Positions 29,685 to 53,886 of a stretch of 64,000 nt of DNA are shown here, piece after piece. The position numbers and the translations under genes were made by a program. A model generated the notes under the pieces. That model made no database searches. It had not been told where the DNA came from and saw only the letters and a list, made by a program, of their open reading frames with translations. The DNA is taken from NCBI GenBank assembly GCA_002733715.2, contig NVWQ02000016.1, positions 1 to 64,000 on the forward strand, in the 5' to 3' direction. The DNA comes from Methylophaga sp. (GTDB lineage: Bacteria; Pseudomonadota; Gammaproteobacteria; Nitrosococcales; Methylophagaceae). The first letter of the stretch is position 1. Each line of letters starts with the position of its first letter.

Positions 29685-30119
29685 ATGAACAAATTTACTG
29701 CTACTTTATTACTTTCATCTGCATTAATGCTTTCTGCTTGTGATCAAGCTCAAGAAGCTACTGATTCTGCCGCTGAAATGGCTGGCGATGCTATGGAAGC
29801 CACTTCTGAAATGGCTGGCGACGCTATGGATGCTACTTCTGATGCAGCAAGTGCTGTCGCTGACTCTGCCTCTGAAATGGCTGGCGATGCTATGGATGCC
29901 ACTTCTGATGCAGCAAGCGCTGTCGCTGACTCTGCTTCTGAAATGGCTGACGATGCTATAGATGCTACTTCTGATGCAGCAAGTGCTGTCGCTGATAGTG
30001 CTTCTGAAATGGTTGACGAAGCTAAAGAAATGGCCTCTGATGCGATGGATGATTCAGCAACAGAAATGCCAACTGAAGATGCTGCTAAAGACGCAGCTGC
30101 TGAGTTAATGCCTCATTAA
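29685..30119 (+). CDS. Low-complexity repeat lipoprotein
   Basis: Lipobox LSAC; repeated EMAGDAMDATSDAASAVADSAS. Confidence 0.8.
   Translation: MNKFTATLLLSSALMLSACDQAQEATDSAAEMAGDAMEATSEMAGDAMDATSDAASAVADSASEMAGDAMDATSDAASAVADSASEMADDAIDATSDAASAVADSASEMVDEAKEMASDAMDDSATEMPTEDAAKDAAAELMPH
29805..30002 (+). repeat. Three tandem 66-bp coding repeats
   Basis: Units 29805-29870, 29871-29936 and 29937-30002, each starting tctgaaatggctg. Confidence 0.85.
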
Positions 30120-48373: not shown

Positions 48374-49950
48374 ATGAGCCACAATATCCACGACCACCGA
48401 ATTCTTATTGTTGATTTTGGTTCACAATATACCCAGCTTATCGCACGCCGCATACGTGAAGCCGGTGTTTACTGTGAATTAAGAGATCCTGAAATAACTG
48501 AAGCCGAAGTAAAAGAATTTAATCCAAAAGGAATTATCCTTTCAGGTGGCCCAGACTCAACAATTAGCAGTGAAGCACCTGTCGCCCCCCAATTTGTATT
48601 TGAACTTGGTATTCCCGTATTAGGTATTTGCTACGGCATGCAAACCATGGCAATGCAATTAGGTGGTCAAGTTGAATCATCCGAACATCGTGAATTTGGT
48701 TATGCTCAAATTCGTGCCCGCGGCCATTCAAACTTATTACGTGATATTGAAGACCATGTTACAGAAGAAGGTTTTGGCCTACTCGATGTCTGATGAGTCA
48801 TGGCGATCGCATATCTAAACTCCCTGAAGGTTTCAATGTTATAGCCAGTACAGAGAGCGCGCCATTTGCAGGAATGGCTGATGAAAAGCGACAATTCTAC
48901 GGTGTGCAATTCCACCCAGAAGTCACACACACTGTTCAAGGCCAACGCATTATCGAGCGTTTTCTAACTGAAATTTGTCAATGTGAAACCTTATGGACAT
49001 CAGCACAAATCATCGAAGACAGCATCAAAACAATTCACCAACAAGTCGGTACTGATGATGTCTTGTTAGGACTTTCTGGCGGTGTAGATTCATCTGTAGT
49101 TGCCGCTTTGTTACACCGTGCTATTGGCAATCAATTGACCTGTGTATTTGTAGATAACGGATTGCTTCGTGAAAACGAAGGCGATCAAGTCATGGCTATG
49201 TTTGCTAAAAACATGGGCATCAAAGTGATTCGTGTTGATGCTGAGCAACGCTTTCTCGATGAACTCGCCGGTGAAAATGATCCGGAGAAAAAACGCCGTA
49301 TTATCGGCCGTGTATTTGTAGAAATTTTTGAAGAAGAATCCAATAAACTAAACAATGTTAAATGGTTAGCACAAGGAACCATCTACCCTGATGTGATTGA
49401 ATCCGCCGCAGCTAAAACAGGTAAAGCTCAAGTTATTAAAACACATCATAATGTGGGTGGCCTACCCGATCATATGACACTTAAATTACTTGAACCTTTA
49501 CGTGAACTATTTAAAGATGAAGTGCGTAAACTAGGTGTTGAACTCGGCTTACCACGTGATATGGTTTACCGTCACCCCTTCCCTGGCCCAGGTTTAGGCG
49601 TTCGTATCTTAGGTGAAGTTAAAAAAGAATATGCTGACTTATTACGTAAAGCCGACAAGATTTTTATCGATGAACTTTATGCTCACGATTTATACGATAA
49701 AACCAGTCAAGCTTTTACCGTATTTCTACCTGTTAAGTCAGTTGGAGTTATGGGTGATGGTCGCCGTTATGATTATGTTGTTTCACTACGCGCCGTAGAA
49801 ACTATCGATTTTATGACTGCACGCTGGGCGCATCTTCCTTATGATTTTTTAGGCTTAGTCTCAAACCGAATTATCAATGAGGTTGAAGGGATCTCTCGTG
49901 TTACTTATGATATATCTGGCAAACCACCCGCTACTATTGAGTGGGAATAG
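48374..49950 (+). pseudogene. guaA: GMP synthase, split into two frames by an apparent 1-nt deletion at ~48,792
   Basis: ORF 48374-48793 ends [12 protein letters not shown] 48793-49950 starts [14 protein letters not shown]. Sequence GATGTCTGATGAGTCATGG; one extra G (GTCTGGATGAGT) restores LLDVWMSHGDR. Confidence 0.92.
49934..49949 (+). repeat. Left att-like direct repeat (guaA last codons)
   Basis: CTATTGAGTGGGAATA. Confidence 0.9.
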
Positions 49951-50112
49951 TTACAACGATTTAAGTTGCTGATTGAATTAGACGGCGCTACTACACACTA
50001 CTTTTACACGCAAAAAACAATCGTTGTTTTATAACGCTTTTGGGCATATTGTTGCGCAAAATGCTGCACAGAGATGTGACAACTACGATTAATAGTAACG
50101 AAGTGTGTAAAT

Positions 50113-51345
50113 TTGGGTTTAAAGAAGCAAATAGTTAACGAAGATGAAATAGCAATATTTGACGAAGCTGTTATACATAAGCGCGGCGAATATTGGCAAT
50201 TTAAGCTCTGGCTGAATGACGAACAAAAGTACGCAAGGAAAAGCTTACGCACACGTAGCAAAATAACAGCAATAGAAAAAGCCAAACGCTTTTACTTAGA
50301 GATATTAGCAGACAGGCAAGCGGGCAAACGATACTTTACGCTGACAACAAAACAAGGCGTGGCGAAGTATATTGAGTACAGAGCAAAAGACGTTGAAACT
50401 GGCTTAATAGTAAGCGGCAGACTGACGACAATACGCACACACTTAAAGCACTTTTTGAGAATTATTGGCAAAGACACAAAGCTTAGAGAATTAGGTTATT
50501 TGGATTGTGAGGATTACTTTTACAAGCGGCACAAGGAAACGAACGGCAACGTAAAAGTAGTAACGATACAAAACGAACAGAGCACTATAAATGCGTGCAT
50601 TTTATGGCTGTTTAAAAATAATGAAACGTACTTTGCAAAGTTTGACTTTAAAAGGCTGGCAAAAGTAGACAGCAATAATGAAGCACTGCGAAGAGCTACA
50701 TTTACATTGAATGAATACAAGCAGCTTTGCGTTACAGCTAAAAACTATGCAAATGAATGCAGCGATAGCGGCAGGCAAGATGAATACGTTATACGCACAT
50801 TAATACGTTATTTTATTTTGATAGCTGGGCACAGTGGCTTACGAGTTGGCGAGCTATTACAATTAAAATGGAATGACGTAGAATTTGAAGCAGTAACAAG
50901 CAAAGGCAAGGAACACTTGTTGGCTAAGGTTGCAGTTAGGGCTGAGACAAGCAAGGTACGTAGAAGCAGAGTGCTTTATTGTAAAGGTGGCGAGCACTTT
51001 AAGCAGTTACAAAAAATACTAAAACACGATAATGGATTAATATTTAGTACGGATAGCATTACTAAAATAACAAAACGTAAACTGCTCTATCACTTCCATA
51101 AAATCGTAGCATTAGCTAATATCCCAAATAGCACTACACGTGCACTTGTACCTTATAGCTTAAGACACTTTGCAATTACACAACGCATATTAAGCGGCTT
51201 AAGTTTGCACGCTGTGGCGAGTATGTGCGGCACGAGTGTTGTGCAAATAGAGCGAACGTACTGGCACGTTAATAATGAGACGAGGCTGACAAGTGCTTTA
51301 GCTGATTACGTGCAAAATGACGACGGCACGATTACGTTAACGTAA
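50113..51345 (+). CDS. Tyrosine recombinase/integrase
   Basis: GHSGLRVGELLQLKW (Arg I), ETSKVRRSRV, PYSLRHFAITQRI (Arg II), ERTYWHVN (Tyr); first gene inside attL. Confidence 0.82.
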   Translation: MGLKKQIVNEDEIAIFDEAVIHKRGEYWQFKLWLNDEQKYARKSLRTRSKITAIEKAKRFYLEILADRQAGKRYFTLTTKQGVAKYIEYRAKDVETGLIVSGRLTTIRTHLKHFLRIIGKDTKLRELGYLDCEDYFYKRHKETNGNVKVVTIQNEQSTINACILWLFKNNETYFAKFDFKRLAKVDSNNEALRRATFTLNEYKQLCVTAKNYANECSDSGRQDEYVIRTLIRYFILIAGHSGLRVGELLQLKWNDVEFEAVTSKGKEHLLAKVAVRAETSKVRRSRVLYCKGGEHFKQLQKILKHDNGLIFSTDSITKITKRKLLYHFHKIVALANIPNSTTRALVPYSLRHFAITQRILSGLSLHAVASMCGTSVVQIERTYWHVNNETRLTSALADYVQNDDGTITLT

Positions 51346-51412
51346 ATACACTCCAAAGCAATACCCCTTTCCACGCTTCAAGCCCCAAAACTAAACAGCA
51401 TTAACGTGCACA

Positions 51413-51428
51413 GCAAGATATATCTTGC
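51413..51428. repeat. Perfect 16-bp palindrome in element intergenic region
   Basis: GCAAGATATATCTTGC, with outer CGTGCA ... TGCACG arms. Confidence 0.7.
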
Positions 51429-51488
51429 CGTTTGCTTTTGCACGCTTAAAACACGTAAATAGTGCTTTGATTTATTTTAGGGTAATCA

Positions 51489-52019
51489 TTGGTTTGCATA
51501 AATAGAATTATGCAGGCAAATAAACAATACACAGAAGCAAGATACGACGAACGGCTACAAGCACAGACGCTTGAATGGATGGGGCAGCACGAAGAGCACT
51601 TAACGCACGCGTGCACGTTTACGATGGAGCAATTTGACGGCAACTTAACGGCTGAGCAGGCTTGGAAGCAGTGGGAGCGATTTTGCAAATATTTGAATAG
51701 AAAGATATACGGCAATGCAGCTAAGTTGCACGGCAAAACACTATTAATACTGCCAGTATTACACGGCGAGATTAGTTATAAAAATTTACACATACACGCA
51801 GCTATTGGCTGTGTTGACGATAGAAGTTATGGCTTTGCTGAATTAAAAACGATTATTGATACAGCTTGGCGTGAGATGAAATGGGCAAAGAATGATATTG
51901 AAATAGTGCAATACAGAGATATAAACTGGATTGACTATATGCTAAAAGAAAGCGTGCGACTTGATTTGCACAGTGTTGATTTAACGCGTTGCTGCATAGC
52001 AAAAACATTACAACAATAA
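51489..52019 (+). CDS. HUH-like replication initiator (inovirus Gp2/YagK-YfjJ-like), putative; true start may be at 51510
   Basis: HIH in KNLHIHAAIG followed by WIDYMLKES (candidate catalytic Tyr and Lys). Confidence 0.6.
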   Translation: MVCINRIMQANKQYTEARYDERLQAQTLEWMGQHEEHLTHACTFTMEQFDGNLTAEQAWKQWERFCKYLNRKIYGNAAKLHGKTLLILPVLHGEISYKNLHIHAAIGCVDDRSYGFAELKTIIDTAWREMKWAKNDIEIVQYRDINWIDYMLKESVRLDLHSVDLTRCCIAKTLQQ

Positions 52020-52332
52020 CAGCAGCACAAAATTACAAAGCGAAGTGCTGACTTGCGTCTACTTAGCTATTTGCAAAAGCACTTATTAGTGCTTTATTAG
52101 CGAAGCTTTGCTCAAAGTAAATACATAGAACTAAAACATAAAAGCATAAGCACTAAACAAAGAAAACGAATAACAGCTAAAGCAAATAAACACACAGATT
52201 AAATGAAGCGCTAAACAGGTGTAACTGAGATATAGCGAGCTTACAGAGAAATAAAACATATTAAGTTGGCGCAGATAGAAACAATGAGAATACTTAAAAG
52301 CTTTGTTTATTTAATTAAGGAAAGCTAAGCAC

Positions 52333-53043
52333 TTGAAATACATAAGGAATACACGACATATGAATATATGGGATAAAGCGGTAGGAATAATAAACAAAAG
52401 AAAACACACTACAGTTAATGAAATTACTTGCTTAAAGAAGGAAAAGACAATGACGGCACGTGTATTGACTGAGAAAGAGCTAAAGCAACTGCTACTGTTT
52501 ATTACAACGAGAAAATACGCAGTACGTGATAGAGCGATTGTATTAATGACGCATTTGGCGGGTATGCGAGTTAAAGAGATAGCAGCAACAAAAATTAAAG
52601 ACGTGCTGGCAAGTGATGGCAGTATTAAGAATGAAATACGTTTAACGGCTGAGCAAACAAAGGGCAAATATGCACGCACTATTGTAGTAAGCGAAAAGCT
52701 ACAAAAGGAATTACGCGTTTACTTGCAAGCACGCTTTGAGACAGAGCAACTTGAAATTATTACTAATACAAGTGAAATGAACAAGGCATTATTTAACACG
52801 CAAAAGCGCAATTACTTTAATGCAAATACACTGTGTTATCACCTGCATATGCTATACAAAACAGCAAATTTACAAGGTGCAAGCTCGCATAGCGGCAGAA
52901 GAAGCTTTTTGACAACATTAAGCAGTAAGGGTGTTGCACTTAGAACAATGATGGAGCTTGCAGGACACAGACAGGCGCAAACAACAATGCAATATATAGA
53001 CGTAAGTGAAGATATAAAAAGAGCAGCTGTGGAGTTAATTTAA
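52333..53043 (+). CDS. Second tyrosine recombinase, catalytic-domain only (start likely 52450)
   Basis: LAGMRVKEIAA, TKGKYAR, SSHSGRRSFLTTLSSKG, ELAGHRQAQTTMQYIDV: all catalytic positions (R-K-HxxR-H-Y) present. Confidence 0.85.
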   Translation: MKYIRNTRHMNIWDKAVGIINKRKHTTVNEITCLKKEKTMTARVLTEKELKQLLLFITTRKYAVRDRAIVLMTHLAGMRVKEIAATKIKDVLASDGSIKNEIRLTAEQTKGKYARTIVVSEKLQKELRVYLQARFETEQLEIITNTSEMNKALFNTQKRNYFNANTLCYHLHMLYKTANLQGASSHSGRRSFLTTLSSKGVALRTMMELAGHRQAQTTMQYIDVSEDIKRAAVELI

Positions 53044-53044
53044 A

Positions 53045-53239
53045 ATGAAGATAAACGAAATAGAAAGCATTAAGCCGATTAAAGCAAAGACAGCTGAGCA
53101 GTTACGTGTTGACACACTTAAAAATAAAAAAGACAAAGCAACAGATGCATTAAAGGCTGAACGCGAACAACAAAAGACAGCAAAAGCGAGAAAAAAGATA
53201 GAGACGGCAAATAAGGTTATTTACGCTATAAAAACGTAG
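53045..53239 (+). CDS. Small Lys-rich coiled-coil protein
   Basis: 64-aa ORF directly after the recombinase gene, KKDKATDALKAEREQQKTAKARKK. Confidence 0.45.
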   Translation: MKINEIESIKPIKAKTAEQLRVDTLKNKKDKATDALKAEREQQKTAKARKKIETANKVIYAIKT

Positions 53240-53264
53240 CGCTTGTAGGCGGGCAAGCAAGCAG

Positions 53265-53702
53265 CTACAACAAAGCTAAGTGTTTACCAAGCTGCTTATC
53301 CAAGCTTGAAACGTGCATAAAAAACCACTCAACAGCAAAATCCACAATCTCCTCTACTGCTATCTCGTCATTTTTAAAAGCAAATACTTTCGTTTTAACG
53401 CTTTCCAAGCAATAGTTGTGCGCCCTAGTATGCTCAGCATAGCCGCTATAGCCAGTATCTATCATTACGTTTTCTTCGCTCATAAAGTGGAAGCGTACAA
53501 ACTGCACAAACTCGTTAATTAACCTAACAACTCGCTCCTTGCTTGCTCCTTTCTCACTTTCATTACAAATATGATTTAACAAGTCAAAATACATTTGATG
53601 CTCTATATCGATTCGCTCGTTATTTACGCTTAACTCTTTAGTCCACTTAATTTTCATAAGCACCCTTTTCACTCTGCTGTTAATTTCGCTATAATCTATC
53701 AC
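53265..53702 (-). CDS. Bacteriohemerythrin
   Basis: IKWTKELSVNNERIDIEHQMYFDLLN; FVRFHFMSEENVM; YAEHTRAHNYCLE; WFFMHVSSLDKQLGKHL: hemerythrin metal ligands. Confidence 0.9.
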   Translation of the reverse strand: MIDYSEINSRVKRVLMKIKWTKELSVNNERIDIEHQMYFDLLNHICNESEKGASKERVVRLINEFVQFVRFHFMSEENVMIDTGYSGYAEHTRAHNYCLESVKTKVFAFKNDEIAVEEIVDFAVEWFFMHVSSLDKQLGKHLALL

Positions 53703-53870
53703 ACACTTAAGCTGCGCACTGTGTAAGTAACTAACTTACAAGTTATTGAAAACATTAGAGGCACACTTAAAACACTGCAAAACAAAACACTGAAAACTAA
53801 CGCAGCAGCTACACAAAGCGACTTTGAAGATGCAGCTAATTGAAAAGGCTGGGTTAAATGGAGGGAGTAG

Positions 53871-53886
53871 CTATTGAGTGGGAATA
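53871..53886 (+). repeat. Right att-like direct repeat, overlapping the acylphosphatase start
   Basis: CTATTGAGTGGGAATA identical to 49934-49949. Confidence 0.9.

Follow-up and report, generated by a model that had tools for sequence, protein, structure and literature searches.

Why would a few kilobases of bacterial DNA be missing several short restriction palindromes at once? The question is raised by positions 49,951 to 53,870 of a 64,000-nucleotide stretch (hereafter, the window) of contig NVWQ02000016.1 from Methylophaga sp., where an integrative mobile element of 3.9 kb sits at the 3' end of guaA. A preliminary description of this DNA had reported no GATC, CATG, GGCC or CCGG and one GANTC in the element, where chance would give about 14 GATC and 14 CATG, and had proposed long exposure to several restriction systems in a broad host range, perhaps in a replicating or phage-like state. 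Exact counts bear out the four zeros and the single GANTC (at position 53610); an independent-base model predicts about 13 GATC and about 13 CATG, and the rate in the rest of the window would yield 14.3 GATC, 14.6 CATG, 5.8 CCGG, 7.0 GGCC and 8.5 GANTC. Other palindromes are indeed common, with 35 AGCT, 36 TGCA, 27 ACGT, 57 TTAA and six AAGCTT (previously given as about seven), and CTAG and TCGA occur once each. The new analysis indicates that the list of missing palindromes is mainly a by-product of something else, namely the loss of the dinucleotides CC and TC (together, YpC) from the sense strand. Whether this loss in turn reflects selection for escape from Rho-dependent transcription termination appears, from the sequence, to be an evenly balanced proposition.

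Two null models were used to compare the site counts with composition. The first consists of dinucleotide-preserving shuffles of the sense-oriented element, and the second (the codon-junction null) keeps the protein, the codon counts and the codon-junction dinucleotides. Under the first, only 1.2 GATC (P=0.30), 1.5 GGCC (P=0.21), 0.8 CCGG (P=0.43) and 1.4 GANTC (P=0.59) are expected; under the second, observed and expected counts are 0/0.8 for GATC, 0/0.7 for GGCC, 0/0.0 for CCGG and 1/0.7 for GANTC. CATG is the sole site on the earlier list that is significantly low in both, with none observed versus 13.9 (P<0.001) and 4.2 (P about 0.01) expected. The shuffles furthermore reveal deficits of CTAG (1 versus 13.9), GCGC (9 versus 26) and CGCG (5 versus 14). 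The preliminary description had named agreement with compositional expectation as the outcome that would speak against its proposal, and such agreement was found for four of its five sites but not for CATG. Restriction-site avoidance, in which type II enzymes met over a long time would have weeded out short palindromes, is rejected by both nulls as the sole cause for GATC, GGCC, CCGG and GANTC in this element, where their counts match its own dinucleotide expectation. It is a possible reason for the absence of CATG; as an account of the whole pattern, it is unlikely.

The dinucleotide composition of the element is extreme overall and, once split by strand, resolves into missing sense CC and TC. 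Specifically, observed and expected sense counts at codon phases 1-2, 2-3 and 3-1 are 0/26, 6/40 and 2/30 for TC and 4/21, 2/23 and 2/25 for CC; their complements on that strand, GA and GG, show just a mild deficit. All element genes together contain 22 YpC, versus about 174 under host codon usage and a possible minimum of 11 for these proteins. The depletion extends to untranslated DNA: the leader between guaA and the integrase gene int, the 52020-52449 gap and the right end jointly hold 3 sense YpC versus 49 expected, and the other strand holds 66 versus 84. In the hemerythrin gene, which lies on the minus strand, the depleted strand switches to minus. The ratio of observed to expected YpC (o/e) falls to 0.13 in int and 0.03 in rep, and YpC-free runs reach 804 nt (from 50282, in int) and 727 nt; the longest such run in 500 shuffles is 160 nt, and the remainder of the window offers none above 159 nt. 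Among 524 open reading frames (ORFs) of at least 130 aa from all loci collected, the four lowest YpC o/e values (0.03, 0.07, 0.13 and 0.28) belong to the four large genes of the element, and most of the next 30 come from the same element family. So extreme a state was seen in this one element only. Outside it, the lowest value in the window (0.59) belongs to a 144-aa ORF at 29685-30116 that has no Pfam match.

This strand-specific loss accounts for most of the missing sites. GATC, GANTC, GGCC and CCGG are removed together because palindromes containing GG/CC or GA/TC need YpC on both strands. Restriction enzymes, which act on double-stranded sites and are blind to strand, cannot cause a loss that affects one strand and extends beyond palindromes. 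The pressure against YpC reaches the protein level. Proline makes up 4 of 970 residues (0.41%), serine codons are split 44:2 between AGY and TCN, versus 43:68 in the host, and residue pairs that force a Y before a C at the codon junction number 6 versus 17 expected, as compared with 10 versus 25 in a sister element and 53 versus 44 in the host.

The codon pattern also bears on a mutational explanation, in which cytosine deamination by a deaminase or ultraviolet light (UV) would have turned YpC into YpT on the non-template strand, which is exposed. APOBEC-type deamination and UV-induced C-to-T changes both favor YpC, and this preference, the bias toward the non-template strand and an enrichment of TT in int (o/e 1.48) all fit. 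Yet third-position C after Y has been replaced mainly by purines, with threonine codons shifted toward ACA and ACG; ATT accounts for 43% of isoleucine codons versus 60% in host genes; the T fraction of int on its sense strand (0.24) does not exceed that of relatives; and serine is encoded almost only by AGY, which a C-to-T change of TCN cannot yield. The replacement pattern thus disfavors C-to-T deamination or UV damage, which we regard as improbable.

A further candidate is codon usage or base composition inherited from a donor genome of unspecified origin. The element is certainly foreign to its host in composition, with a GpC rho of 2.1 versus 1.37 and a GG/CC value of 0.52 versus 1.02. The depletion, however, spans codon junctions and untranslated DNA and alters amino-acid pairs, all three of which disfavor donor codon usage, no host gene set or other collected locus resembles the element, and the young cargo of sister elements shows no YpC depletion. 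Such an inheritance is, if anything, slightly less probable than deamination. A campylobacterial donor, considered at first, was set aside once the relatives proved to be proteobacterial guaA elements. Avoidance of CRISPR protospacer-adjacent motifs was rejected by argument only, as these motifs act on either strand.

Since YpC is lost from coding and non-coding DNA alike and the loss switches with gene direction, the evidence points to RNA. YC repeats are the proposed initial contact points of the Rho primary binding site, 5'-YC (PMC9160355), and a 2026 study showed that genes adapt their sense-strand composition and codon usage to avoid Rho, an avoidance proposed there as a barrier that foreign elements face (PMC13323073). 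Escape from Rho could operate here as follows. Rho acts chiefly on transcripts that are foreign, poorly translated or untranslated, and 700-800 nt without YpC would leave it almost nothing to load on; the antisense strand, which stays YpC-rich, would still be terminated. Transcription from guaA may continue over a YpC-free leader into int and the genes after it or, in an excised circle, may enter them from the right end. By a rut-like rule (a minimum of 5 spaced YpC in 78 nt, with C over G), which is the analysts' own and no validated predictor, 3% of the sense coding sequence in the element qualifies versus 36% of host genes, and so does most of the antisense. A sense strand almost without YpC or rut-like features in genes and untranslated RNA, facing an antisense strand that has them, is what was found. 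The host has a Rho RNA-binding domain. On its sense strand, the operon is densest in YpC at 51351-51390, in the int-rep gap just past the int stop; this cluster might, speculatively, be a Rho-dependent terminator placed where termination would be useful. The broader picture, in which we place a little less than even confidence, is that of a small broad-host-range lineage whose transcripts would be nearly blind to Rho, with YpC removed down to the choice of amino acids and the loss of restriction sites as a free side benefit.

The evidence from strand, codon phase and untranslated DNA points to RNA or the transcribed strand and not specifically to Rho, so that another RNA-level pressure, such as a nuclease or an RNA-targeting defense with a YC preference, would fit it as well. 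We know of no widespread nuclease or defense factor with such a preference, and this alternative seems the most doubtful of those considered here. Rho, by comparison, is nearly universal, and its YC preference has been described (PMC9160355).

Several observations weigh against Rho escape. A YpC cluster persists at 51085-51160 inside int, near its 3' end. RpC is gained in the element (GpC o/e 2.07 in int) and RpT is lost, neither of which Rho avoidance alone predicts, and the deficits of CATG, CTAG, GCGC and CGCG are not explained by YpC loss. Among relatives, sister genes are only about half depleted and their leaders barely so (about 0.67), and distant family members are hardly depleted at all. 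Moreover, the usual view for Proteobacteria is that ribosomes shield translated mRNA from Rho, which would make a purge of codons less necessary.

The relatives provide the second part of the answer. An integrase alignment scan of 84,980 species genomes gave 31 loci, nearly all at the 3' end of guaA and most with int starting about 160-165 bp past its stop. A marine clade from Thalassobacter, SAR116, IMCC14465 and one Pseudomonadales metagenome-assembled genome (MAG) forms the sister group of the window integrase (support 0.80). In this clade and its near members from HTCC2150, Porticoccaceae and Oceanospirillales, int DNA is 86-95% identical across Alpha- and Gammaproteobacteria when the adjacent guaA DNA is 54-81% identical. 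That int is far more alike than the neighboring guaA is direct evidence of transfer between the classes, and by sequence the closest relatives of the window element are broad-host-range. Sister elements begin with int and an XerC-like gene, followed in some by an HUH Rep; small ORFs (DUF6626 among them), the cargo and a 233-aa protein come next and then, in some, a DUF6641 protein. The cargo varies and probably includes acyltransferase-, formyltransferase-, sialic-acid-synthase- and methyltransferase-like genes.

Backbone genes of sister elements have a median YpC o/e of 0.53 and cargo genes one of 1.00 (Mann-Whitney P=1e-7, which overstates independence because sister copies are near-identical; the division into backbone and cargo is the analysts' own, drawn from how the genes are ordered and how much they vary). 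In these elements, XerC-like genes on the minus strand are depleted on their own sense strand. The homologues, which the preliminary description had suggested as a further test, also avoid GATC, and in most cases GANTC, beyond dinucleotide and codon expectation. Relative to the codon-junction null, four sister backbones hold 0/5.2, 0/6.1, 1/5.4 and 0/2.6 GATC and 1/4.3, 0/3.3, 1/4.2 and 0/1.3 GANTC; two cargos are normal in GATC (8/8.5 and 7/5.3) and two acyltransferase-like ones are low (1/4.0 and 0/3.5). Altogether, GATC occurs once in 15.8 kb of backbone genes versus 23 times in 11.1 kb of cargo. Avoidance of restriction or methylation sites is therefore real in the element family, beyond dinucleotides, present in the backbone but absent from young cargo, and the family's broad host range fits it too. 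In many Gammaproteobacteria GATC is the motif of Dam, and in Alphaproteobacteria GANTC is that of CcrM, so that an element moving between both classes would gain from having neither. As a separate and less firm point, CATG in the window element and GATC and GANTC in its sisters would be avoided in addition, most simply through restriction or methylation barriers between Alpha- and Gammaproteobacteria. The earlier proposal of several restriction systems may apply to CATG here, holds in part for the family through GATC and GANTC in the sisters, and is not supported for GATC, GGCC, CCGG and GANTC in the window element.

Individual relatives show site and dinucleotide patterns of their own. An element in a Pseudomonadales MAG (L032:9838-17400) has no CATG in 7.5 kb including cargo, and the backbones of the sister elements L033, L034 and L036 have 6-9. 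At the guaA site of a Porticoccaceae MAG (L051:9896-11787), int encodes no prolines and has CC at an o/e of 0.07 and TC at 1.56, a different dinucleotide purge from that of the window element; AGCT, ACGT, GCGC, CGCG and GGCC are all at 0 in the 3.1-kb stretch counted there, which includes a run of N. A further guaA-site element (L026:8747-11602) encodes, beside type III restriction-like genes, a 952-aa helicase whose sense-strand YpC is likewise low (0.52).

The window element itself lies between the guaA stop codon on its left and an acylphosphatase-like gene on its right (Table 1). The core at the guaA end is identical around four relatives (L033, L034, L036 and L049), and an empty site, in which guaA and the next gene are contiguous, was found in a genome of the same genus (G013, locus L065) at 82% identity. 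The element may excise as a circle, transfer and replicate; to judge from the direct repeats, the circle would place the right-end region just upstream of the leader and int. It is present as a single copy in the genome, with a G+C content of 38.2% (40.2% in the window), and 62 other genomes of the same order contain no close copy of its integrase. Homologues of int sit at guaA in many Proteobacteria, and the spacing between guaA and int of about 160-165 bp is kept in most relatives.

Table 1 Features of the guaA-site element in the Methylophaga sp. window
Feature	Position	Strand	Evidence or remark
attL core CTATTGAGTGGGAATA	49934..49949	+	16-bp direct repeat; last codons of guaA, overlapping the guaA stop
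attR core CTATTGAGTGGGAATA	53871..53886	+	16-bp direct repeat, right end
Untranslated leader, guaA stop to int	49950..50112	+	Sense YpC 1 observed vs 13 expected
int, guaA-directed tyrosine recombinase, 410 aa, TTG start	50113..51345	+	Pfam Phage_integrase E=3e-11
int-rep gap	51346..51509	+	14 YpC in 164 nt; cluster 51351-51390
rep, HUH-motif protein, 169 aa, putative rolling-circle replication initiator	51510..52019	+	Motif LHIHAAIG; downstream Tyr in WIDYMLKE
Untranslated gap, 430 nt	52020..52449	+	Sense YpC 2 vs 23 expected
Second small tyrosine recombinase, XerC-like, 197 aa	52450..53043	+	Pfam Phage_integrase E=6e-23 (longer reading)
Small ORF, 64 aa	53045..53239	+	Open reading frame list
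Bacteriohemerythrin, probable cargo	53265..53657	-	NCBIfam bact_hemeryth E=3.5e-25, above cut-off
Right-end untranslated region	53658..53870	+	0 YpC vs 12 expected on + in 53703-53866

The putative assignment of rep as an HUH Rep draws on its motif and on weak similarity: the protein shares 27-32% identity with the L032 and L033 Reps, and the HIH motif and a downstream Tyr occur in all three. Only the L032 Rep matched Pfam REP_ORF2-G2P (E=1.3e-4, under the curated cut-off). The AlphaFold model of the window Rep is poor (pLDDT 44) and a fold search with it gave no significant match; sequence searches matched nothing in PDB sequences and nothing in plasmids. The second recombinase is 48% identical to that of the L026 element. 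Pfam has no match for the 64-aa ORF, the PHROGs matches of this ORF are all weak (E 0.09 or worse), and an Rfam scan at E<0.5 gave no match. The bacteriohemerythrin gene (53265-53657) is the probable cargo of this 3.9-kb element. An integrase and a Rep-like protein support the mobile character suggested in the preliminary description, and the broad host range of the closest relatives supports its suggestion of a wide host range. As for the replicating or phage-like state, neither proof of autonomous replication nor virion genes turned up: none of the five ORFs matched phage structural or packaging genes in Pfam or PHROGs, as those of a prophage or phage satellite would. Single searches of viral contigs with the window int, the second recombinase, the L033 int and the L032 Rep found no relative, and an integrase alignment search of such contigs found one distant prophage integrase, in L030. 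This locus (L030:77-11288), a viral contig with the same integrase family, has terminase- and portal-like genes that suggest a tailed prophage, along with genes similar to those of the 7-deazaguanine pathway. Another guaA-site element (L027:6181-10781) combines an HUH Rep (Pfam REP_ORF2-G2P E=4e-15) with an FtsK/Zot-like ATPase and has the look of an integrated element of inovirus type with the same integrase family.

Rho is held to silence horizontally acquired DNA, and the element bears on the question of how small mobile elements without anti-Rho proteins are expressed across many hosts. With 700-800 nt devoid of the Rho contact dinucleotide and proline nearly eliminated, it is a natural extreme that makes this question directly testable. 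It also serves as a warning that counts of missing palindromes in mobile DNA may stem from a strand-specific dinucleotide constraint and need strand-oriented, codon-aware nulls.

Compared with known systems, the element is in general terms like the genomic islands and other integrative elements known from the 3' end of guaA, such as GIsul2, in its tyrosine integrase, intact guaA and direct repeats. It differs from guaA islands in an integrase family with int about 160 bp past guaA, a second small recombinase and an HUH-motif Rep, and a plasmid search with the sister integrase gave no close match; among the titles and abstracts retrieved on such islands, none reports an extreme loss of YpC. Small broad-host-range plasmids (PMC10359461) are alike in missing sites and wide host range, which the sister elements fit. 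In that study, 4-bp palindromes were avoided no more in plasmid than in core genes (PMC10359461), whereas the signal in the window element is a strand-specific dinucleotide loss. The purine bias interpreted as Rho avoidance under runaway transcription (PMC13323073) shares the sense escape, the exposed antisense and the purine-ending codons, but there the bias is one of bases and spans whole genomes, in Bacilli and further runaway species, and the case presented here is a near-total, dinucleotide-specific purge in one mobile element. Finally, phage anti-Rho strategies (P4 Psu, PMC11718236; N/Q antitermination) likewise let a mobile element shield its transcription from Rho. These rely on proteins or RNA sites, whereas the protection proposed here would be built into the whole transcript.

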